In this document: piece after piece, positions 2,738-60,162 of the stretch
Layout of the letters: each line of letters starts with the position of its first letter
How positions within the stretch are numbered: position 1 is the first letter of the stretch
Source: Lysobacter oculi
GTDB taxonomy: Bacteria; Pseudomonadota; Gammaproteobacteria; Xanthomonadales; Xanthomonadaceae
Assembly: GCF_003293695.1 (NCBI RefSeq)
Contig: NZ_CP029556.1
Coordinates: forward strand, 2,428,001 to 2,492,000
DNA: 64,000 nucleotides
Direction: 5' to 3'
Notes under the pieces: generated by a model
Told to the model about the DNA's origin: nothing
Database searches by the model: none
Seen by the model: the letters and a program-made list of their open reading frames with translations, nothing else
Program-made: the position numbers and the translations under genes

Positions 2738-3115
2738 GTGTTGAAACTGAATCGCCTACGTAGGGGAAGTGCGCTGCGCATGCTCGCGTTGGCGCTGCTC
2801 GCGCTCAGCATGATGGCGCGGCCCGTGCTCGCGGCGATCGGCGAGGCGCACGAGCTTGCGCACGATCCCACTGGTCGGCACGCCTACGTCAGCGAAACAG
2901 GTGGGACAGCGGGGGACGATGAGTCCGACGAGCAGTCCGTGGGGCATGCCCTGCTTGAATTCGCACACTGTTGTGCCCAGCTGTCGGTGGCGACGGCGGA
3001 AGGGTTGTTCGTTCCGGCGGTAAAGCCGCGGAGTTCGCTCGCGGCGTGCCCCGAGGTGACGACGCACGGCGCGGGCGCCCGCGGATCGCCTTTTCGACCC
3101 CCCATCCGGGTTTGA
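2738..3115 (+). CDS. Small exported leader-like protein upstream of czcC (CzcI-like)
   Basis: A 125-residue protein with a basic N-terminus and hydrophobic signal segment (MLALALLALSMMARPVLA), then a His/Asp/Glu-rich region (GEAHELAHD, GDDESDEQS) and a CC pair in EFAHCCAQL. It ends SPFRPPIRV. It is clearly related to the protein at 23837-24217: both have A-[IL]-G-x2-HE-x2-H after the signal peptide and an FRPPI tail. It opens the czcCBA operon, the position held by CzcI in Cupriavidus. The start used is GTG at 2738; an internal ATG at 2780 is possible. The function is not established; a periplasmic metal-sensing or translation-arrest leader role is discussed in the findings. Confidence 0.7.
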   Translation: MLKLNRLRRGSALRMLALALLALSMMARPVLAAIGEAHELAHDPTGRHAYVSETGGTAGDDESDEQSVGHALLEFAHCCAQLSVATAEGLFVPAVKPRSSLAACPEVTTHGAGARGSPFRPPIRV

Positions 3116-3121
3116 CGAACC

Positions 3122-3138
3122 CGCCGGCAATGCCGGCG
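3122..3138 (+). promoter_or_regulatory. Hairpin between leader-like gene and czcC
   Basis: A perfect 7-bp stem (CGCCGGC, AAT loop, GCCGGCG) begins seven bases after the stop codon of the leader-like gene and is followed by a T/C-rich stretch (CTGTTTTCGTCTTTC). It could be a partial terminator/attenuator that sets czcCBA expression. Similar hairpins follow the related genes at 24217 and 59724. Confidence 0.5.
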
Positions 3139-3172
3139 CGCTGTTTTCGTCTTTCTTTCCCGGAGTATCCCC

Positions 3173-4446
3173 ATGCGTTTGCGACTCGCGGCCGTTGCCG
3201 CGTGCGTCGCAGCGATGCTGTTCGCATTTTCCGCATCCGCTGCCGACCGTTTGACCCTCGACGATGCGTTTGCGCGCGTTGAGCAAGCCCATCCTGACCT
3301 GCGCTTGGCCGGTGGCCAGCGCAATGTGCTCACCGCCGAACTCGACCGGGCCAGCTTCCGGCCTCCGCTGCGCATAGGCGCTTCGGCCGAAAATATCCTG
3401 GGCACCGGAGAGGCCAGCGGCCTGTCGGGCACTGAGCTCACGCTCACGCTCGCGTCGGTGCTCGAGCGTGGCGGCAAGCTCGACGCGCGCCGCGCCTTAG
3501 TGCAGTCGCGGATCGATTCGCTGGCCATCCAGCGCGAAGGCAAGCGCCTGGACCTACTGGCTGAGGTCGCCCGCCGGTACTTGGCAGTGGTGTCGGCGCA
3601 GAAGCAGCGCGAAATCGCCGACCTGGACATCGGCCAGCGTCGCCGTACCGTGGCGGGAGCGCGCGAGCGACTGGTGGCGGGTGCCTCGCCCGAGTCCGTC
3701 GTTCTGACCGCGGAAGCCATGCTTGCGCGCGCGGAGCTCGAGCGGGCACGGGCCGCCCAACGGGAGGCCGGTGCCCGCCAGCACTTGGCCGCGCTCTGGG
3801 GCGAGCGCGACCCCGACTTCCAGGTGGTCACCAGCAATCCGCTGGTTCTGCCGAAGATCGCAGCCTTCGAGGAGCTGTCGACCTGGCTGACGCGGACGCC
3901 GGAGATCGCACAGTTCGCGAGCGAGCAGCGCATCCGCGAGGCCCGCTTGCAGCTTGCCCGCACGCAAGCCACGCCCGACATCGACTGGCAGGTGGGCGTG
4001 CGTCGCCTGCAGGCGACCGATGATTTCGGTTTCGTCGCCAGCGCCTCGGTTCCGCTGGGCGCGCGTACGCGTGCCCAACCGGAGATCCGTGTAGCACAAG
4101 CGGAGCTCGAGCTGCTCGAAATCGAGCGCGAGAGCCGCAATATTTCCCTGTATTCCACCCTCGCCGACGCGCACGGACGGTTCCTGTCCGCGCAACTGGA
4201 GGTGCGGCGTCTGGCGAGCGACGTGATCCCCAAGCTTGGGCGCGCCGAAGCGGCCGCCGAGCGTGCGTACCGCGCCGGTGCCATCAGCTATCTGGAATGG
4301 GCTCAGTTGCAGTCCGAACGCACCAATGCCCGCAAGCAGCAACTTGAAGCCGCGCTGGAAGCCCAGCGCGCCCTGATCGAAATCCAGCGCCTGACAGGCC
4401 AGCCCTTCGTGGCAGGTCCTGGCGAGCGCTTGCCCGGAGAGACCCC

Positions 4447-4450
<4 letters not shown>
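3173..4450 (+). CDS. czcC: Outer-membrane factor of Czc-type RND efflux (CzcC)
   Basis: A TolC-family outer-membrane channel that completes the CzcCBA pump, carrying Zn/Cd/Co out of the periplasm. The 425-residue protein has a signal peptide (VAACVAAMLFAFSASA), then the two long helical repeats typical of OEP proteins with Leu/Ala/Arg-rich coiled coils (for example TLDDAFARVEQAHPDLR and the C-terminal RAYRAGAISYLEWAQL segment). Length fits CzcC. ATG at 3173 follows a CCGGAG ribosome site. It overlaps czcB by four bases (ATGA-like, 4447-4450), indicating translational coupling. Confidence 0.92.
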
Positions 4451-10370
<5,920 letters not shown>

Positions 10371-23836: not shown

Positions 23837-24217
23837 ATGCAACGCATTCGCCGCCACCGCAGTTTCCTGCGTACCGCACTTCTGGTGCTGGTGGTGCTTG
23901 GCATGCTGATTCAGCCAGCCTTGGCTGCATTGGGTGACCTGCATGAGATCGAGCATGCAGCCGCCCTGCATTCCGACCACGGCCACGCGCACCATGATGG
24001 TCATGAGGTCCCTGCGGATGACAAGGATGCGCCGGGCGATCCGCTGGGTATCCACAGCTTGCTCCACCCCAGTGGTGCGGCAGCCTCGATGGCCTTGATT
24101 GAACCCGTAGTACTGCTGCCCAGTCTGATGGCTGAAGGCGAGTCGCCTGTGCGCGCCTATGCCTCGGGGCCTCCCATGTCACGACTGACCTTGCCGTTCC
24201 GTCCACCTATCGCCTGA
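23837..24217 (+). CDS. Small exported His-rich leader-like protein upstream of second czcC
   Basis: A 126-residue protein with a basic N-terminus and hydrophobic signal segment (TALLVLVVLGMLIQPALA), then a His-rich stretch (HSDHGHAHHDGH) and Asp-rich segment, ending LPFRPPIA. It is homologous to the protein at 2738-3115 (shared A-[IL]-G-x2-HE motif after the signal and FRPPI tail) but lacks its Cys pair. It is the first gene of the second RND operon. The ATG at 23837 was chosen because it starts the signal peptide; upstream codons overlap chrA in another frame. The role is unknown; see findings on RPPI-ended leaders. Confidence 0.75.
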   Translation: MQRIRRHRSFLRTALLVLVVLGMLIQPALAALGDLHEIEHAAALHSDHGHAHHDGHEVPADDKDAPGDPLGIHSLLHPSGAAASMALIEPVVLLPSLMAEGESPVRAYASGPPMSRLTLPFRPPIA

Positions 24218-24228
24218 TCCCGCAACCA

Positions 24229-24246
24229 AGCCGCATGTTCGCGGCT
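24229..24246 (+). promoter_or_regulatory. Hairpin between leader-like gene and second czcC
   Basis: Stem AGCCGC (24229-24234), loop ATGTTC, stem GCGGCT (24241-24246), starting 11 bases after the stop codon at 24217 and about 40 bases before the czcC GTG. There is no strong T run, so it may act on translation or as a weak attenuator. It matches the position of the hairpins at 3122 and 59701. Confidence 0.45.
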
Positions 24247-24286
24247 GTCCTTGCTGCTGATTTCGTGATCGGACGGAGGTGGTTCC

Positions 24287-25519
24287 GTGTTTTCTTTACA
24301 TCGTTGCCGGGTGCGGTGCCTGCTGGCGCTGACCCTGTTGTGCTGGGCGGCCGTTGGCCATGCTCAGCAACGTCTGACCGCGCAGGAAGCGGTCGAACTG
24401 GCATGGTCGCAAGGCCATCTTCAGGCTGAACTCGAAGCCGGCGTTGCCTCCGCAAGAGGCGAGTTGGTCTCGGCACGCACCTGGTCCAATCCCACGCTCA
24501 GCGTGGATCGCGAGGAGTTGCGCGACGGGCCATCGCAACCTGGCAGCGAGACCAGCGTGATGCTGTCGCAGCCGTTCGAGTTGGGCGGTCGTCGCGGCGC
24601 ACGCATTCGCGCAGCAGAAGCCGGTGTGACTGCCGCGCAAGCTGAGGCTGCGCATGAGCGCGTCCGACTGCGCGGCGATGTACTGCGTGACTACTACGCA
24701 GCCGCTGCCGCTGAGCGCAGGATGCAGGCGCAGGACAAGATATCCGCCGGACTGGCGTCATTGGCTGATGTCGCAGGCAAACGCCATCGTGCGGGCGATT
24801 TGTCCGGTTACGAAAGCCGCCGCATCGCACAGGCCAGCGCCCAGTCGCAGGCGCGCCGCACCCAGGCGGCGGCGGAAGGGCGTGCCGCGCGAATCCGGCT
24901 GGCAGGTTGGGTCGGCGACATCGCGTTAAGCGCCGAACTGGATGATGCGATCACACTTCCAGTTGTTAGCGCTGACACCGACATCCGTAGCGCCGAACTG
25001 GATGCGCTTGATGCACGCCGTGTTCATGCGGAAGCGCAAGCGGTGGCAGCTCGCCACCCAGCACTGCCGGTCACGATCGGAATTGGCAGCAAGCGCATAC
25101 GCGAGGGCGGCATCACTGACGATGCCCTGATGCTCGAGGTTGGCTTGCCCTTGCCGATCTTCGACCGCAACCAGGGCGAACGCGCCCGCACTTCAGCCGA
25201 AGCGCAACGTGCGGACGCAAAGTACCAACGCGCCCTGGTGCAGACACGTGCGCGGCGCACGGCTGCGCTCCAAGAGGCGCAGCAACTGAGTGAGTCAGCA
25301 CGCAGGATGCAGGCCGAGATGGTGCCGGAGGCCGCGCGGCTCACCACCATCGCACGCAGCAGCTTTGCCGAAGGGGAACTCGATCTGGTCGGTCTGCTGG
25401 ACGCCTACGACGCTGAAGCCGGCGTCATCGACCAGGCCTTGGAACAGCAAGCCCGTGCACTGGACGCGTTGCTCGAACTCGAACGCATGTCACCAACAAC
25501 CCACACAACCCACCCATGA
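24287..25519 (+). CDS. Outer-membrane factor of second RND system (CzcC-like)
   Basis: A 410-residue TolC-family channel. Signal peptide LLALTLLCWAAVGHA is followed by the two helical repeats; visible motifs include LTAQEAVELAWSQ, the conserved SNPTLS-like WSNPTLSVDREEL, and the second-half ARSSFAEGELDLVGLLDAYDA that marks Czc/Cus outer-membrane factors. The GTG start at 24287 is preceded by CGGAGG, a good ribosome site. The stop overlaps the first possible start of the next gene (25516), so the operon is tightly packed. Confidence 0.9.
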   Translation: MFSLHRCRVRCLLALTLLCWAAVGHAQQRLTAQEAVELAWSQGHLQAELEAGVASARGELVSARTWSNPTLSVDREELRDGPSQPGSETSVMLSQPFELGGRRGARIRAAEAGVTAAQAEAAHERVRLRGDVLRDYYAAAAAERRMQAQDKISAGLASLADVAGKRHRAGDLSGYESRRIAQASAQSQARRTQAAAEGRAARIRLAGWVGDIALSAELDDAITLPVVSADTDIRSAELDALDARRVHAEAQAVAARHPALPVTIGIGSKRIREGGITDDALMLEVGLPLPIFDRNQGERARTSAEAQRADAKYQRALVQTRARRTAALQEAQQLSESARRMQAEMVPEAARLTTIARSSFAEGELDLVGLLDAYDAEAGVIDQALEQQARALDALLELERMSPTTHTTHP

Positions 25520-27448: not shown

Positions 27449-30400
27449 ATGATTGGCAAGTTGATCGATTGGTCGCTGCGCAACCGAATCTTCGTGTTGT
27501 TCGGTGGTCTGCTGCTGTTGCTCTGGGGCACGTTCGAGGCACGGCGGATGCCGGTCGACGTCTTCCCGGACTTGACCGCTCCTTCTGTCACGGTCGTGAC
27601 CGAAGCGCATGGCATGGCGCCTGAAGAAGTGGAGACGTTGGTAGCCTTTCCACTGGAGACCGCGCTCAACGGTGCACCGGGCGTGCGCCGGGTACGCTCC
27701 ACCAATAGCGTTGGTATTGGCGTGGTCACCGTGGAGTTTGACTGGGGAACCGACATCTATCAGGCACGCCAGATCGTGGCCGAGCGGATCGCCACGGTGC
27801 GAGGCCAGCTTCCCCCCGATATCCCGGAGCCGACGCTCGCGCCCATCACCTCGATCATGGGCGAGATCATGTTCATCGCCCTGCACTCGGATAAGCACAC
27901 GCCGATGGAGCTGAAGACCGCGGCGGACTTCGTGCTACGCAGGCGATTGTTGGCGGTACCGGGTGTGGCGGAGGTGATCCCCAATGGCGGAGACACCCGT
28001 CAGTTCCAGGTGGTGGCGGATCCGCTTCGCCTTTCATCCTTTGGGGTCACGCTGGATCAGTTGATGACCGCTGTGGCCGGCAGCAACGAGAACACCTCGG
28101 CGGGCTTCTATGTCGAGAACGGACAGGAATTCCTCATCCATGGCCGTGGACGGGTTCGTGAGTCCACCGATATCGGCGAGATCTTCGTGGCCCAGCGCGG
28201 CGATCGCCCGGTGCTGGTGCGTGATGTGGCCGATGTGCGCATTGGCGCCGCACCGACACGTGGTACCGCCAGCTTCAACGGCAATCCGGCAGTCGTCATC
28301 GGCATCCAGAAGCAACCCGGCGCGAATACGCTGGCATTGACGGAAAAGATCGATGAAGTGCTGGCTGACATCCAGACATCGCTGCCACAAGGAATGACGA
28401 TCAGCGCCAACCTGTTCCGACAGTCCGACTTCATCAGTGTCGGCATCGGCAACCTGGGAAAGGCGATCATCGAAGGCATGATTCTGGTGATCGCCATCGT
28501 GTTCGCTTTCCTGTTGAGCGGGCGTGCCACTGCGATCACCTTGCTGGCGATTCCACTCTCACTTGCCGCCGCTGTGCTGGCCATGAAGGCCGCGGGCATC
28601 GGCATAAACACCATGACATTGGGCGGCATGGCAATCGCTCTGGGCGCGCTAGTAGATGACGCAATCATCGTGGTCGAAAACATCGTGCGTCGGCTGCGCG
28701 AGAACGCGATGCTGTCCGATGCCGAGCGTCGCAGCACGTTGCAAGTGGTCTTTGCCGCGACCCGCGAAATCCAGGGGTCCGTGGTCTTCGCCACCATCAT
28801 CATCGTGCTGGTGTTCTTGCCGATCTTTGTCCTCAGCGGGGTGGAAGGCCGGTTGATGCAGCCATTGGGCTTCGCCTATGTAGTGTCGCTGCTGGCCTCA
28901 CTTGCGGTCGCCGTCACGATCACCCCGGTGTTGTGCAGCCTTTTCCTGCCGAAGTCGAAGATCGTGCGCGAAGGGCATGAGTCGCGCCTTTCGCAGTGGC
29001 TAAAGAGTCGTTATCGCCCGCTACTTGAGGCCAGCTTGCCGCGTTGGAAATCAATTGGTGTCGCATCCGTGGTTGGAACGGTGCTGACCTTGGCTGCTCT
29101 GCTGTTGGCGGGCCGGGCCTTTCTCCCGGACTTCAATGAGGGCAGTTTGACGGTCAACGTGACGACGCTACCGGGCACATCGCTACCGCAATCCGATGCT
29201 CTGGCAAGCCGGGTCGAGAAGATCCTGTTGGAGCAGCCGGAGGTGGTGGCCACAGGGCGACGCACCGGGCGTGCGGAACTCGACCCCCATGCGCAGGAAA
29301 TTTACGCCTCCGAAATCGAGGTGACGCTGGAGATGAAGGATCGCAGCAAGCAAGCGCTGCTTTCGCATCTTCGCAGCGAGTTCTCGGGAATTTCCGGTGC
29401 GCAGGTGGTGATTGGTCAACCGATCTCGCATCGCATCGACCATATGCTGTCGGGTACCCGCGCGAATATCGCGATCAAGCTGTTCGGCAACGACCTGTAC
29501 GAGCTTCGTCGCATTGGCAAGCAGATCGAGGATCAGGTGAAGGCCGTGCCGGGTGCGGTGGACGTGAATTTGGAGCAGCAGTCCGAGCTCCCGTTCGTTA
29601 CCGTCGATTTTGATCGCCAGGCCATTGCCCGTTACGGCATGACGATACGAGAGGCCAGCCACGCCATTGAAACGGCGTTCTTTGGCAGCACCGTCTCGCG
29701 CGTACTGGAAGGCAATGCCAACGTCAATTTGGTCGTGCGTTTGCCCGATGCAGCACGCGACAGCGTTGAAGCCATGCAATCCCTGCAGATCGCCACACCG
29801 GAAGGCGCACAAGTGCCGCTGTCAGCCATCGCCAAGGTGACGCGCAACCGGGGGCCAAACCAGATCGGACGGGAGAATGTGCAACGCCGGATCATCGTCA
29901 TGGCGAACGTGGCTGGGCGGGATCTCAATAGTGTGGTCAATGACGCCCGCCAGCGTATTGAGCAGAACATCGCGTTGCCGGCTGGTTACCACGTGGAGTA
30001 CGGCGGGCAGTTCGAGAGCGCCGCCGCCGCCTCGCGCACACTACTGATGCTTGGTAGTGTGGTGATTGTCGGCATCTTTCTGTTGCTCTATCTGGCGTTC
30101 TCAAGCACGCGCGATGCCTTGCTGGTCATGCTCAACTTGCCGCTGGCGTTGCTAGGCGGTGTCGCGGGTGTGTGGCTAGGCGGTGGCGTGATGACTGTCG
30201 CATCGATCATTGGCTTTATCACCTTGTTCGGCATTGCTACGCGCAATGGCGTGATGCTGATTGCCCACATTCACCATCTTTCGCAGGAAGAGGGCGTGGA
30301 TGACCCAGTTGAACGGGTGCGGCGCGGCGCGGAGGAACGCGTAGTGCCAATCACCATGACCGCGCTGGCCACAGCACTGGCACTCGTGCCGCTTGCGCTG

Positions 30401-30601
30401 TCGGCTGGTGAGCCGGGCAGCGAGATCCAGGCACCCATGGCGATCGTCATTCTGGCTGGACTGCTCAGTTCGACCGTACTCAACATGCTGGTACTGCCCG
30501 CTCTCTACTTGCGTTACGGGGAGTTCGGCGAGCGCACACGTAGCGGTGCCAGTGCGCAGGCGTCCGTCAGAAGCATGGACGCTGAGCCACAGCGCCGCTA
30601 A
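27449..30601 (+). CDS. Heavy-metal RND pump (CzcA/CusA family), second system
   Basis: An intact 1050-residue proton-driven inner-membrane pump with the HME-RND pattern: TM1 near LRNRIFVLFGGLLLLL, two large periplasmic loops, and TM4 GGMAIALGALVDDAIIVVEN, then KIV/FLP loop and a second membrane half. The TM4 motif differs from the DFG...D form of the first CzcA and lies between the CzcA and CusA types, so the metal range is probably different. It forms an operon with its channel and adaptor genes and is followed 17 bases later by an MFS gene. No frameshift is present. Confidence 0.93.
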   Translation: MIGKLIDWSLRNRIFVLFGGLLLLLWGTFEARRMPVDVFPDLTAPSVTVVTEAHGMAPEEVETLVAFPLETALNGAPGVRRVRSTNSVGIGVVTVEFDWGTDIYQARQIVAERIATVRGQLPPDIPEPTLAPITSIMGEIMFIALHSDKHTPMELKTAADFVLRRRLLAVPGVAEVIPNGGDTRQFQVVADPLRLSSFGVTLDQLMTAVAGSNENTSAGFYVENGQEFLIHGRGRVRESTDIGEIFVAQRGDRPVLVRDVADVRIGAAPTRGTASFNGNPAVVIGIQKQPGANTLALTEKIDEVLADIQTSLPQGMTISANLFRQSDFISVGIGNLGKAIIEGMILVIAIVFAFLLSGRATAITLLAIPLSLAAAVLAMKAAGIGINTMTLGGMAIALGALVDDAIIVVENIVRRLRENAMLSDAERRSTLQVVFAATREIQGSVVFATIIIVLVFLPIFVLSGVEGRLMQPLGFAYVVSLLASLAVAVTITPVLCSLFLPKSKIVREGHESRLSQWLKSRYRPLLEASLPRWKSIGVASVVGTVLTLAALLLAGRAFLPDFNEGSLTVNVTTLPGTSLPQSDALASRVEKILLEQPEVVATGRRTGRAELDPHAQEIYASEIEVTLEMKDRSKQALLSHLRSEFSGISGAQVVIGQPISHRIDHMLSGTRANIAIKLFGNDLYELRRIGKQIEDQVKAVPGAVDVNLEQQSELPFVTVDFDRQAIARYGMTIREASHAIETAFFGSTVSRVLEGNANVNLVVRLPDAARDSVEAMQSLQIATPEGAQVPLSAIAKVTRNRGPNQIGRENVQRRIIVMANVAGRDLNSVVNDARQRIEQNIALPAGYHVEYGGQFESAAAASRTLLMLGSVVIVGIFLLLYLAFSSTRDALLVMLNLPLALLGGVAGVWLGGGVMTVASIIGFITLFGIATRNGVMLIAHIHHLSQEEGVDDPVERVRRGAEERVVPITMTALATALALVPLALSAGEPGSEIQAPMAIVILAGLLSSTVLNMLVLPALYLRYGEFGERTRSGASAQASVRSMDAEPQRR

Positions 30602-56608: not shown

Positions 56609-57748
56609 TCAGAACCACACGCGCACGCCGGCCACCACGCGTGTGTCCGCTGCGCCGTGCCCCGCGTTGCGACGAAAGTCGGCGGTGTCGCCAAAGGCGC
56701 GGTCGTGCTCGAGGCCGATGTAGGGCGCGAACTGACGTGTGACCTCGAACCGCAGTCGGGCACCAAACTCGACTGTCGAGAGACCGGCGCCAATACCCGC
56801 CAGTGGATCTGCCTTGCCATGAGCATTTGCCTCCGCCCGCCACTGCAGGATCAGGCGGTTGGTCAGCAAGGTGTCGTACTCGGCTTCCGCACGCAGCGCC
56901 GTGCGACCGCCCTGGCCGATGTAGGCGGTGGCCGCCACCTCGAACTTGTAAGGCGCCAGCCCCTGCACACCGAACGCTGCCCAGGTGCGCGAAGGGCCTT
57001 CGCCCACTTCCTGACGCACCCCGGCCAACACGTCCCACCACGCCCGCACGCTGCGGCCATACAGCACTTCAACATCGCCGTGTTCGATGCGGCCATCGAC
57101 GGAATCGCCCTCGCTGCGCAGCCAGACACGCTGGATGTCGCCACCGATCCAGCCCAATGCTTCCCATCCCAGCGCGGTGCCGTCATCGGCGTCGGAAACC
57201 TCCAGACGGTCCAGCAGCCAGTAGCTGTTGGTGCTGGTGCCGTGTTCGTGGTGCGTGTGCACCGCGGGGAAAGCGGCCTCGCGGTCGGCTTGGGTTACGA
57301 GCGGAATTGGCGTGACGGACGTGGAAGGCGCGTGATCTATCTTCGAATGGTCCATGCCTTCCATGTTCGAGTGCTCCATGCCCTCCATCTTCGAGTGATC
57401 CATGTCCTCCATCTTGGAATGGTCCATGCCCGTCATCACGGGGGACTCCATCTTCGAGTGACCCATTCCTTCCATTTTCGAATGGTCCATCGTGGAATGA
57501 TCCACTGCGGCAGGCGCTGCCTCCGGCGTCGCGGTCTTGCGAACGGGTTGCGTTGCTTTGGCAGGGGCCTTGGCCGCAGGTGGCCTCGGTGTTTCAGCAG
57601 GCTTCGCGGGAGGCGGCTTCTGTTCGGTGGTCATGGCAGCTGGCTTCGTGGGCGTCATCGCATGCCCCTCGTGCTGGGCGCGAGCCGGTGACGGCGCAGC
57701 GATCGCGAAGACAATCCCAATCGGAAGAATCAGGCGCATGGCGTTCAT
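56609..57748 (-). CDS. copB: Copper resistance outer-membrane protein CopB
   Basis: A 379-residue protein (376 from the second ATG at 57739, which has GGAGG at a better distance). Signal peptide ends PSPARA. A Pro/Ala/Lys region is followed by a run of about seven Met/His repeats of the type DHSKMEGM (residues 83-140), and a C-terminal beta-barrel domain (WLLDRLEV, LAGVRQEVG, ending VVAGVRVWF). CopB is thought to bind Cu and affect its export. The start overlaps the copA stop. Confidence 0.93.
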   Translation of the reverse strand: MNAMRLILPIGIVFAIAAPSPARAQHEGHAMTPTKPAAMTTEQKPPPAKPAETPRPPAAKAPAKATQPVRKTATPEAAPAAVDHSTMDHSKMEGMGHSKMESPVMTGMDHSKMEDMDHSKMEGMEHSNMEGMDHSKIDHAPSTSVTPIPLVTQADREAAFPAVHTHHEHGTSTNSYWLLDRLEVSDADDGTALGWEALGWIGGDIQRVWLRSEGDSVDGRIEHGDVEVLYGRSVRAWWDVLAGVRQEVGEGPSRTWAAFGVQGLAPYKFEVAATAYIGQGGRTALRAEAEYDTLLTNRLILQWRAEANAHGKADPLAGIGAGLSTVEFGARLRFEVTRQFAPYIGLEHDRAFGDTADFRRNAGHGAADTRVVAGVRVWF

Positions 57749-59622
57749 TCCTCCACCCGCACTTCCCGGAACATGCCGGATTCCATGTGGAAGAACAGAT
57801 GGCAGTGGTAGGCCCAGCGCCCCAGCGCATCGGCGCGCACGCGATAACTTCGCTTGCTTCCCGGCGGCATGTCCACGGTGTGCTTGCGCACCTGGAAATT
57901 GCCGTCGGCGTCTTCCACGTCGCTCCACATCCCGTGCAGGTGGATGGGGTGGCTCATCATGGTGTCGTTGACCAGCACGATGCGCAGGCGCTCGCCATAA
58001 GTCATGCGCAGTGGTTCTGCCTGGGCGAACTTGAGCCCGTCGAACGACCACGCGAACTTCTCCATGTGCCCGGTCAGGTGCAGCTCAACCGTGCGGCCCG
58101 GCTCGCGGCCGTCCGGGTCTGCGAAGGTGCTCCTGAGGTCTGCGTAGGTCAGCACGCGACGGCCGTTGTCGCGCAGGCCGATCCCGGGATCATCCAGCTT
58201 CGGCGTGGGCGACATGGTCTGCATGTCCACCAGCGGGTTGTTGGTCTCGCTTGCCGGGTGCGTTTGCATGCCACCGGCGCCATGGTCCATGCCGACCATC
58301 GCGCCTGCGCCTGTGGCCATGGCGTGGCCTGCGTGGGGATCTGCGGAGGGGGATGACGGCGGCGGAGTGCCCGGCATCGCGTGACCCGCATGCGGAGCCG
58401 CGGCGGCAGCGGGTTGCGAGGACGCCATCGCATCCATGTCGTGGCCCGCATGCATGTCGCCATGGCCCATGTCGGCCATGCTCATGATCGGGCGGGGATC
58501 CAGAGGGGGGATCGGTGCGCGCAGACCCTCGCGCACAGCGAGGGTGCCGCTGACATATCCCGTGCGCGCGCTGTCCTGGGCGAAGACGGTGTAGGCGTCC
58601 TGTCCGCCGGGCTGCACGATGACGTCGTACGTTTCTGCGGCACCAATCCGAAGCTCATCCACCGTGACCGGATGCACCGGCTGGCCGTCGGCGGCGACCA
58701 CGGTCAGTTTCAGTCCGGGGATGCGCACATCGAAATAGGTCATCGCCGAGCCATTGATCAAGCGCAGGCGCACCTTGTCACCGGGGACGAACACGCCGGT
58801 CCAATTGCCTAGCGATGTGGTCCCGTTGAGCAGGTATGTGTAGGTCTGCCCGTTGACGTCGGACAGGTCCGTGGGGGTCATACGCATCTGCCCCCACATC
58901 TTGCGGTCGGCCACGGTGGCAGGAAGGCCCTTGCGCTCGGCATCGCGCATGAAATCGCCGACGGTGCGCTGGTAGACGTTGTCGTGGCTGGCCATCTTCT
59001 TGAGCCGCGCGAACAACTTCGCCGGATCCATGTCGGTCCAGTCGGACAGCATCACCACGAAATCTCGGTCGCTGGCGATGGGGTCCGGCCCGGCCGGGTC
59101 GATCACGAGCGGCCCGTACATGCCGCCCTGTTCCTGGAAACCGGAGTGGCTGTGGTACCAGTAGGTGCCGGCCTGTTTGACGTCAAAGCGGTAGAGGTAG
59201 CTCTCGCCCGGGCGGATGCCATCGAAGCTCATCCCCGGCACGCCGTCCATGTTCGCGGGCAGCACGAGGCCATGCCAGTGGATCGACGTGTCCGGGCCAT
59301 GGATGGATCCGCGCGGCAGGTCGTTGCGCACGCGCAAGGTAACCGTGGTGCCTTCCTTCCAGCGCAGCAGCGGACCGGGCAGCGTGCCGTTGATGGTCAC
59401 GGCAGGGCGGGTTTGCCCGGTGTAGTTGACCAGGGTCTCGCCGACGCTGAGGTCGAGCTCGGTTCCTCGCAGCACCGGCATCTTCCGCGACTGCTGTGCC
59501 CAGCCCGTCTGTGGCCATAGGCCCAAGCCGGCGACAGCACCTCCCGCGGCCAAGCCCTGGACGAAGCGCCGCCGCGACGGCATGGCGATGCCCGGCGACA
59601 CGCCGGGATATTTGAATGACAT
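57745..59622 (-). CDS. copA: Periplasmic multicopper oxidase CopA
   Basis: A 625-residue copper oxidase exported by the Tat pathway (PSRRRFVQGLAAGGAVAG). The copper-site motifs are HWHG (TSIHWHGLVLP), YWYHSHSGFQ, HPIHLHGMW and YHCHLFFHMESGMF, containing the T1, T2 and T3 ligands. A Met/His-rich insert (residues about 400-490, with GHGDMHAGHDMDAM) matches CopA-type proteins of copper-resistant Pseudomonas/Xanthomonas. It oxidises Cu+ to the less toxic Cu2+ in the periplasm. ATG at 59622 was preferred to keep the full Tat signal. It overlaps copB and follows copL on the same strand. Confidence 0.95.
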   Translation of the reverse strand: MSFKYPGVSPGIAMPSRRRFVQGLAAGGAVAGLGLWPQTGWAQQSRKMPVLRGTELDLSVGETLVNYTGQTRPAVTINGTLPGPLLRWKEGTTVTLRVRNDLPRGSIHGPDTSIHWHGLVLPANMDGVPGMSFDGIRPGESYLYRFDVKQAGTYWYHSHSGFQEQGGMYGPLVIDPAGPDPIASDRDFVVMLSDWTDMDPAKLFARLKKMASHDNVYQRTVGDFMRDAERKGLPATVADRKMWGQMRMTPTDLSDVNGQTYTYLLNGTTSLGNWTGVFVPGDKVRLRLINGSAMTYFDVRIPGLKLTVVAADGQPVHPVTVDELRIGAAETYDVIVQPGGQDAYTVFAQDSARTGYVSGTLAVREGLRAPIPPLDPRPIMSMADMGHGDMHAGHDMDAMASSQPAAAAAPHAGHAMPGTPPPSSPSADPHAGHAMATGAGAMVGMDHGAGGMQTHPASETNNPLVDMQTMSPTPKLDDPGIGLRDNGRRVLTYADLRSTFADPDGREPGRTVELHLTGHMEKFAWSFDGLKFAQAEPLRMTYGERLRIVLVNDTMMSHPIHLHGMWSDVEDADGNFQVRKHTVDMPPGSKRSYRVRADALGRWAYHCHLFFHMESGMFREVRVEE

Positions 59623-59700
59623 GACTACTCCACATGGTTCAGTGACGGCCTTGAGTACAAGGCAGCTCCGGCATGGCAAAAAGGCTCATGCAAGGCAAAC

Positions 59701-59723: not shown

Positions 59724-60162
59724 TTAGCCGATGGGAGGTCGAATGAAGTTGAGCAGCGCAGGTGTGGCATGGCCGACGGGCAAGGTAGTAGCCATTGCGG
59801 CGCTGCCCGGCACTGCGGTTAACACTGACAAGTCGAGAAGAGCCGCTTGCCCTATCTGCATGCACGGGCAAGTGCATGAGCCTTGCGCGCAGCAGTCTCT
59901 GTCACAGTCGGCAGGGTGCTGGGTTGCCGATGGGGGGAGCTCTACCGGTGCCGAGCGACTTGCTCCGTTTGTCTGTGGCGTGGTCGCACGCGCTGGCGAG
60001 CTGCGGAGAAGCTTCAGCCATCGACATGGCAACATGCGCGGGCGCATCCAGCATGGCTGGCATTGCCACTGCGGCCATGGCGTTGCCGATCCCATTGAGG
60101 ATCAGACAAAAGGCCAAAAGCAGGCGTAGGGCAGTGCGCGGCATGGTGACAGGGTACGACAC
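59724..60162 (-). pseudogene. copL: CopL-type copper-operon leader protein, frameshifted
   Basis: The N-terminal half (60162 or 60144 down to about 59935) reads MPRTALRLLLAFCLILNGIGNAMA..., a signal-peptide-bearing CopL-like sequence. The C-terminal half is in the other frame: a Cys cluster CDRDCCAQGSCTCPC and a conserved end GHATPALLNFIRPPIG, stop at 59724. The break is at the run of six G at 59932-59937 (six C on the coding strand), so an indel in a homopolymer explains it. In Xanthomonas copL lies upstream of copAB and is needed for copper induction. Whether this copy is truly broken needs read data. Confidence 0.8.

Follow-up and report, generated by a model that had tools for sequence, protein, structure and literature searches.

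Why should operons for metal efflux begin with small exported proteins that end in the same few residues? In the window analysed here, a 64,000-nucleotide stretch of the Lysobacter oculi genome, an initial annotation had described three such proteins, each with a signal peptide and each at the head of a metal operon, and had supposed that they act as leaders that stall the ribosome. Two of them, leader 1 and leader 2, are as described; the third, copL, is not one open frame but is split between ORFs. The tails read as claimed, with [F/I]RPPI one or two residues from the stop (SPFRPPIRV in leader 1, LPFRPPIA in leader 2, NFIRPPIG in copL). What had been proposed as a leader family at metal efflux genes has indeed turned out to be one: its members are exported, bear His/Cys residues, end in a near-invariant RPPI and are followed by a conserved RNA structure. 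Probably, these are cis-acting, metal-sensing, CutF-like leader peptides that control downstream efflux by translation arrest.

Leader 1 (positions 2738-3115, plus strand) is an exported 125-aa protein with a GTG start and a HALLEFAHCC stretch; its R-P-P-I codons, a putative arrest motif judged from the sequence and from conservation in homologues, occupy 3095-3106. Leader 2 (23837-24217, plus strand; exported, 126 aa) has 11 His and zero Cys, and its tail codons F-R-P-P-I-A lie at 24197-24214. Both signal peptides were recognised by eye, and a simple hydropathy rule (basic N-region plus hydrophobic core) finds one in 119/129 tail-bearing leaders. At 125 and 126 aa, both pass the length filter of CutF-like proteins (<150 aa) and carry its Pro-Pro in the last 15 residues; they score below the cut-off of 40 against the NCBIfam profile CopL_fam (NF033807), at 21.9 and 14.0 bits, respectively, and neither has a Pfam match to DUF2946 (PF11162), a family that 12 of 23 aligned leader-family members match at E<=1 (best E 0.0096). 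By eye, the genes directly upstream of leader 1 (~1550-2625) resemble those of a MerR-type regulator, on the minus strand, and of a cation diffusion facilitator, which suggests an additional transcriptional layer; upstream of leader 2 is a chromate transporter-like gene (also by eye).

What do the leaders precede? Behind leader 1, domain scans place a CzcC-like outer membrane efflux protein (3173-4450), a CzcB/IhpB-like adaptor (4447-5478) and a CzcA-like RND pump with the 10-residue pump motif (5468-8278), all on the plus strand. This czcA (5468-8698) looks split by eye, with 936 aa in one frame and an apparent RND C-terminus that seems to run on in another (8420-8698). Behind leader 2, also on the plus strand, are an outer membrane efflux protein with a GTG start (24287-25519; domain scan) and a CusA/CzcA-family RND pump with a ALGALVDDAIIVVEN motif (27449-30601; domain scan and motif). 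The gaps between leader and next gene are 57 and 69 nt in the window; the family median is 56 nt, with 51-61 nt in 64/87 loci. Of these 87 loci, 59 had their downstream proteins scanned: 52/59 match the outer membrane efflux protein (OEP) domain, and single proteins match the E1-E2 ATPase and adaptor domains.

The leaders are also alike in how their potential metal ligands are spaced: in 65 of the 67 loci with a Cys motif, the last such motif has its first Cys 40-45 aa before the Arg. Counting Cys after residue 25 in the 87 loci, four leaders have none, five a single one and 78 at least two. RND pumps can be classed by their TMH4 motif, the DFG type being associated with Zn/Co/Cd and the Cus type with Cu/Ag; leader 1 is paired with a DFG-type pump and leader 2 with an ALGALVDDA pump. 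Among Cys leaders, the 10-residue pump motif was found in 11/13 stretches (other type 1, unmatched 1); among leaders with no or one Cys, it was found in 2/7, with the ALG type in 1/7 and 4/7 unmatched in the stretch read. The notion that the ligand class of a leader tracks the pump type gave no clean link and was dropped. In two genomes, leaders of unlike type stand back to back and are divergently transcribed (L049/L050 on G385:C82 and L047/L067 on G302:C9).

CopL, on the minus strand, is disrupted by a frame break that separates its signal-peptide half (59902-60162, in its own frame; CopL_fam profile positions 2-56) from its Cys-rich half with the IRPPIG tail (59724-60095, in a different frame; profile positions 43-129). 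The latter half, at 55.5 bits against the cut-off of 40, is a CopL_fam member; its R-P-P-I codons are at 59741-59730 and its stop at 59726-59724. The gene behind it is the multicopper oxidase copA (57745-59622, minus strand; TIGR01480, 1010.8 bits). An intact second copL, ending in NLIRPPIG, lies at genome positions 2417328-2417732, ~10 kb before the window starts. Together with the apparent break in the first operon's czcA, the split of copL may point to errors in the assembly or to operons in decay. Among 30 CopL loci fetched, 29 end in RPPI plus one residue, and the tail was not seen in the remaining one (L199).

Is the shared tail more than a chance resemblance? A genome-wide pattern scan for RPPI codons with a stop 0-9 nt on, in any frame, gave 25 matches, vs 9 for a reversed-pattern control; when 24 of the 25 were read by eye (two entries, L186 and L187, being the same site), the only recognisable leaders were leaders 1 and 2, the window copL tail and the second copL. 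A scan that required YHC before the Arg missed leader 1 (TTT) and copL (ATT) and was repeated without that constraint. Protein searches from the leaders returned 9 and 27 proteins, the 27 including the query; RPPI plus one or two residues ends 34 of these 36 homologues, and the other two, P0007 on a 545-base and P0009 on a 666-base contig, match the leader front and do not end in RPPI. PFRPPI is invariant in a 23-row alignment that comprises 21 of the 36 homologues plus leaders 1 and 2 and leaves out P0007 and P0009; used as a profile against the genome contigs, this alignment found 2 loci only.

To avoid circularity, a tail-less model was built from 32 diverse members with their last residues cut off and was run against 398 genomes of the order, of which 116 had a match at E<=0.001. 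The tail returned: [RK]PP stands 1-3 residues before the stop in 115 of 120 strong hits (E<=2e-9), RPPI with a longer extension in four and neither in one, so the expectation that RPPI is conserved beyond chance in homologues is borne out; weak hits have the tail in 13/21. All 32 seeds are within the 120 strong hits, and the tail is present in 83/88 non-seeds, the five exceptions all being non-seeds. As controls, five internal 8-residue windows contain [RK]PP in 0/115 of the tail-bearing hits, and only 7/120 strong hits, among them two with extended tails, have it anywhere but in the last 12 residues. Among the 115, Pro-Pro is preceded by Arg in 113 and by Lys in 2, and it is followed by Ile in 114, the one exception having Arg. 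The likeness to Arg-x-Pro-Pro arrest sequences that had been drawn at the outset therefore fails: because the basic residue is directly next to Pro-Pro, RPPI is not an RxPP motif of the RAPP/RGPP kind.

In 87 non-redundant loci, which were chosen by the presence of [RK]PP, the R, P, P and I columns carry 4.1, 4.3, 4.3 and 3.8 bits of information, and most of the preceding 35 columns carry <1.6. The codons are less uniform: all four Pro codons occur at the first Pro (P1), and all six Arg codons occur at R, plus Lys in 3 loci, so the peptide itself looks selected, and a peptide-level role of the tail can be held with high confidence. Rare variants (L016, L017, L145, L152 and L158), with Lys for Arg (FKPPI, IKPPR) or Arg for Ile (RPPR), are natural tests of which positions matter; four other loci (L057, L075, L093 and L140) have 6-16 extra residues behind RPPI, possibly through shifted stops or frame changes. 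A class-wide search with the tail-less model matched 17/369 genomes, 5 of them in this order and the other 12 weakly (best E 2.6e-5).

If the peptide is selected, what is the role of the RNA behind it? The small GC hairpins of the initial annotation are where it had placed them: GCCGGC-AAT-GCCGGC within 3122-3138 (plus strand), AGCCGC..GCGGCT at 24229-24246 (plus strand) and GGCGC..GCGCC at 59714-59701 (minus strand), all by eye. The relevant element is larger, however: across the family, each small hairpin caps a longer structure that joins tail codons to the Shine-Dalgarno (SD) sequence of the next gene in three tiers, namely (i) the tail codons and the SD at the base; (ii) the stop-codon region and a 3' arm; and (iii) the inner GC stem. 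Folding z-scores are -2.08 for leader 1, -2.30 for leader 2 and -3.48 for copL, and in the predicted folds of all three the next gene's SD pairs with the last leader codons. In the minimum free energy fold of leader 1, an anti-SD arm UCCGGG (3105-3110), set in the Ile-Arg-Val codons right behind Pro-Pro, would sequester the SD CCCGGAG of the outer-membrane efflux gene (3159-3165); the middle helix (3113-3151), supported by the fold and by family covariation, begins within the stop codon and pairs 3114-3120 with 3140 and 3146-3151. In leader 2, the predicted anti-SD arm is 24197-24204 and the sequestered SD of the second efflux operon is GGACGGAGG (24271-24279). In copL, the copA SD GGAG (59628-59631, minus strand) pairs with the RPPI codons with P 0.99.

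Conservation of the hairpin in homologues, too, had been put forward as a check, and it is found. In an alignment of 53 of the 64 non-redundant loci, a chosen subset whose own columns supplied the structure, the covariation score is 0.204 vs 0.126 in shuffles that ignore relatedness (0/500 reach it) and 0.035-0.096 in slid versions; the eleven loci left out had odd spacing or tails (L010, L025, L036, L058, L066, L071, L141, L142, L147, L158 and L159). Nine pairs show two-sided change, a count equalled in 18/500 shuffles: 5/5 in the inner helix, 2/4 in the stop-codon helix, the single pair of column 23 and 1/5 (one cell) in the tail-SD helix, the two upper pairs of which fail in 25 and 30 of the 53 loci. 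Covariation thus backs the upper tiers, and the support for the tail-SD tier comes from the comparisons of codons and recodings described below. Over all 64 loci, the stop-codon helix has a mean of 4.89 pairs vs 4.20 (sd 0.12) when partners are exchanged (0/300).

No Rfam family was found in the window. An RNA model built from the 53 rows matches leader 1 (3101-3175, 49.5 bits), itself one of those rows, and leaves leader 2 and copL unmatched. Over 200 genomes the model gave 33 matches, 30 of which were read as loci: 25 are at RPPI leaders already found (many being model rows), one is at a copL with the tail RPPIA and four have no recognisable leader. Because most of these are known leaders, no new RPPI family emerges from the 200 genomes. 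A role of the hairpin as an intrinsic terminator was set aside because a T run behind the stem, looked for by eye, is not a family feature.

The tail codons themselves carry the signal expected of an RNA partner. P1 is CCT in 49/87 loci (56%) vs 87/852 (10%) of other Pro codons in the same leaders, and the second Pro is CCG in 70/87 (80%) vs 471/852 (55%) elsewhere; CCTCCGAT is complementary to ATCGGAGG. Loci entered the folding comparisons by stated filters (64 for the stop-codon helix, 82 for duplexes and 81, also needing a recognisable SD, for full folding). Across 82 loci, the tail-SD duplex averages -12.7 kcal/mol vs -8.8 (sd 0.26) for synonymous recodings (0/200 as strong), -10.3 (sd 0.23) with partners permuted (0/200) and -7.8 for a control segment 45 nt upstream; 40/82 loci beat 95% of their own recodings on duplex energy (median p 0.06). 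In full folding of 81 loci, the probability that the SD is paired to the tail is 0.772 vs 0.335 after recoding (20 sets, 0.27-0.38) and exceeds 0.5 in 67/81 loci vs 27.3 recoded, leaving 14/81 that do not exceed 0.5. Leader 1 has a pairing probability of 0.75 vs 0.31 recoded, and leader 2 has 0.79 vs 0.46; on duplex energy alone neither window leader beats 95% of its own recodings (p 0.12 for leader 1; p 0.705, no better than recoded, for leader 2). The CopL set shows the same tendency: P1 is CCT in 17/21 non-redundant loci vs 41/247 Pro codons elsewhere, while pairing, at 0.50 native vs 0.26 recoded (0.15-0.31; 21 loci), is weaker than in those 81 loci and exceeds 0.5 in only 10/21. One stretch thus serves as putative arrest motif and anti-SD at once, and an RNA switch that works through an SD-hiding hairpin is, on these predicted folds, very likely.

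Could the RNA pairing alone account for the tail? In plain translational coupling, with no regulated arrest, every ribosome that reaches the end of the leader would open the hairpin and let the next gene start, and the tail would be maintained for its RNA pairing (CCTCCGAT being the anti-SD) and not for its peptide. The strong codon bias and the SD pairing are what such coupling predicts, and a ribosome that terminates there would shield the same arm. Yet RPPI is kept despite differing codons, with six for Arg at R and four for Pro at P1; the 14/81 loci that do not pair still have RPPI, in a set chosen for the tail; and the metal ligands at fixed spacing are left unexplained. Coupling without a role for the peptide is therefore unlikely, although it is the strongest of the alternatives.

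If the ribosome does arrest at RPPI, which we consider likely, how would metal come into play? The leader would be co-exported by Sec, so that, just when FRPPI arrives in the peptidyl-transferase centre, the His/Cys site ~40-50 residues before the tail would be positioned on the periplasmic face of the translocon. On the mRNA, a single long hairpin would run from the last codons of the leader through the stop region to the inner GC stem, its base hiding the SD of the efflux or oxidase gene. By analogy with CutF, metal that binds the growing leader may slow its passage and make the ribosome dwell on RPPI; the paused ribosome would cover the anti-SD arm and free the start site, and the pump would be translated. 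Without metal, the leader would be completed fast and the hairpin would re-form. A ribosome at RPPI must, given its footprint, hold the anti-SD arm open whether it is the RP-P or the RPP-I bond that fails. That metal prolongs the arrest is slightly more likely than not. Two observations weigh against easy acceptance of arrest itself: RPPI is at odds with the RAP|P chemistry that has been solved for RAPP peptides, and the proline tail of CutF alone is reported not to have stalled a LepB reporter (PMC9973294).

The direction of the metal effect separates this arrest model from a CruR-like one, in which the stall at RPPI occurs as long as metal is absent and is released by metal, with Rho-dependent transcription termination downstream. 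The two share a layout, with a signal peptide and a metal site ~45 aa before a C-terminal Arg-Pro motif, and a DUF2946 protein with an RGPP tail is encoded in the same genome. But efflux should rise with metal, while copper shuts the CruR-controlled operon; the gap is ~56 nt here vs 162 nt in cruR-bfrG (PMC9426467); and here the Arg is adjacent to Pro-Pro and the SD is sequestered. A CruR-like scheme is accordingly quite improbable, and, for an efflux pump, the anatomy speaks for an arrest that metal prolongs, which is the proposal made for CutF, and against one that metal relieves, which is the case of CruR.

Nor do the leaders look like proteins that simply work in the periplasm, as metal chaperones or trans regulators like CzcI, with the tail as a signal for secretion or for protein-protein contact. 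Such a role would fit the signal peptides and the His/Cys motifs, and CzcI, which lacks a proline tail, has been suggested to be a metal-sensing regulator (PMC9973294); the codon constraint and the SD pairing of the tail, on the other hand, are cis features of mRNA, and CutF and CopL are reported in the same paper not to act in trans, which makes a purely periplasmic role a shade less credible still than the CruR-like scheme. Least probable of all is that the tail is common merely by recent descent or ascertainment: almost all clear hits in the genomes searched come from one order and the loci are related, but the tail is near-invariant though the neighbouring 35 residues have diverged, a model without it recovers it in distant hits, and the recoding test sets each locus against itself.

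A regulatory leader that acts by translation arrest is thus the best explanation, and it would matter in several ways. Bacterial efflux of Zn, Cd and Co is usually explained by transcriptional sensors; to these, the leaders would add translational sensing of metal beyond the cytoplasm, built into the pump's own mRNA, and the model offers a concrete cis mechanism for CopL. In a dual-coded tail, peptide and RNA can be told apart through synonymous vs non-synonymous codons, and the chemistry of arrest motifs would be broadened because Arg-Pro-Pro-Ile misfits the Arg-x-Pro-Pro geometry. More tentatively, and with somewhat less than an even chance of being right, F/L-R-P-P-I may be a new class of bacterial arrest motif, dual-coded in ~12-18 nt so that arrest and the opening of the next gene are a single element, with the leaders of CzcA-type pumps, the Cys-free ones included, sensing non-copper metals such as Zn, Cd, Co or Ni in the nascent chain.

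How do these leaders compare with systems already described? To our knowledge, no metal site is known in the RAPP arrest peptides ApdA/ApdP or in SecM. These peptides also have a C-terminal Arg/Pro arrest motif, which is putative here; SecM, moreover, is an exported protein whose arrest opens a stem-loop that hides an SD (PMC10951233 and PMC7897499). The RAPP peptides differ in the position of the Arg, and ApcA, ApdA and ApdP are reported to have no predicted SD-hiding hairpin (PMC7897499). CruR/DUF2946 of Bordetella pertussis is likewise an exported leader with a metal motif ~45 aa before a C-terminal Arg-Pro motif that heads a metal operon; it differs in having RAPP instead of RPPI, a 162-nt gap, Rho termination and control of import (PMC9426467), and arrest of CruR at RAPP has been demonstrated in vitro (PMC12992588). 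The genome at hand contains both tail types: a DUF2946/CruR-type leader (L221, genome positions 2062120-2062518) with an RGPPARA tail lies upstream of a TonB-dependent receptor-like gene (by eye), and the RPPI hairpin model weakly matches the gap behind it (E 0.0067). A DUF2946 search hit 2/114 genomes, too few for a comparison of tails.

The general idea is already in print: the CutF-like proteins, 5,334 of which are listed with OEP as the most frequent neighbour and with CopL, SilD, CusD and CzcI mentioned, cover CopL and leaders with OEP neighbours (PMC9973294). There, CopL is described as required for copper-regulated copA expression in Xanthomonas, and not in trans. With respect to the CopL family NF033807, the two czc leaders are below the cut-off, and their gap is about half of CopL's length. 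CzcI of Cupriavidus metallidurans, CutF-like and encoded ahead of czcCBA, is reported to have no C-terminal proline motif (PMC9973294). In titles and abstracts, with little of the subscription journals covered, a literature search turned up, among the matches listed, neither a C-terminal RPPI arrest motif in metal leaders nor arrest codons that double as an anti-SD in such leaders.

The nearest relative, then, is the Rhodobacter capsulatus cutFOG system, which shares with the leaders a length <150 aa, a Sec signal, a metal motif, a C-terminal proline motif, a short gap and an SD-hiding stem-loop, the last in silico here (PMC9973294). The spacing of 45 aa reported for both CruR and CutF is like the 40-45 aa between Cys and Arg in our loci. 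Three differences stand out against what PMC9973294 describes: (i) the tail here is a near-invariant F/L-R-P-P-I; (ii) its own codons are the anti-SD, whereas the paper puts the stem-loop between cutF and cutO; and (iii) a Cys-free leader here heads an RND operon, whereas the paper's His-only clusters, 14 and 17, adjoin HupE/UreJ. The leaders belong to the CutF-like kind and are set apart within it by their tail motif and by a dual-coded anti-Shine-Dalgarno.
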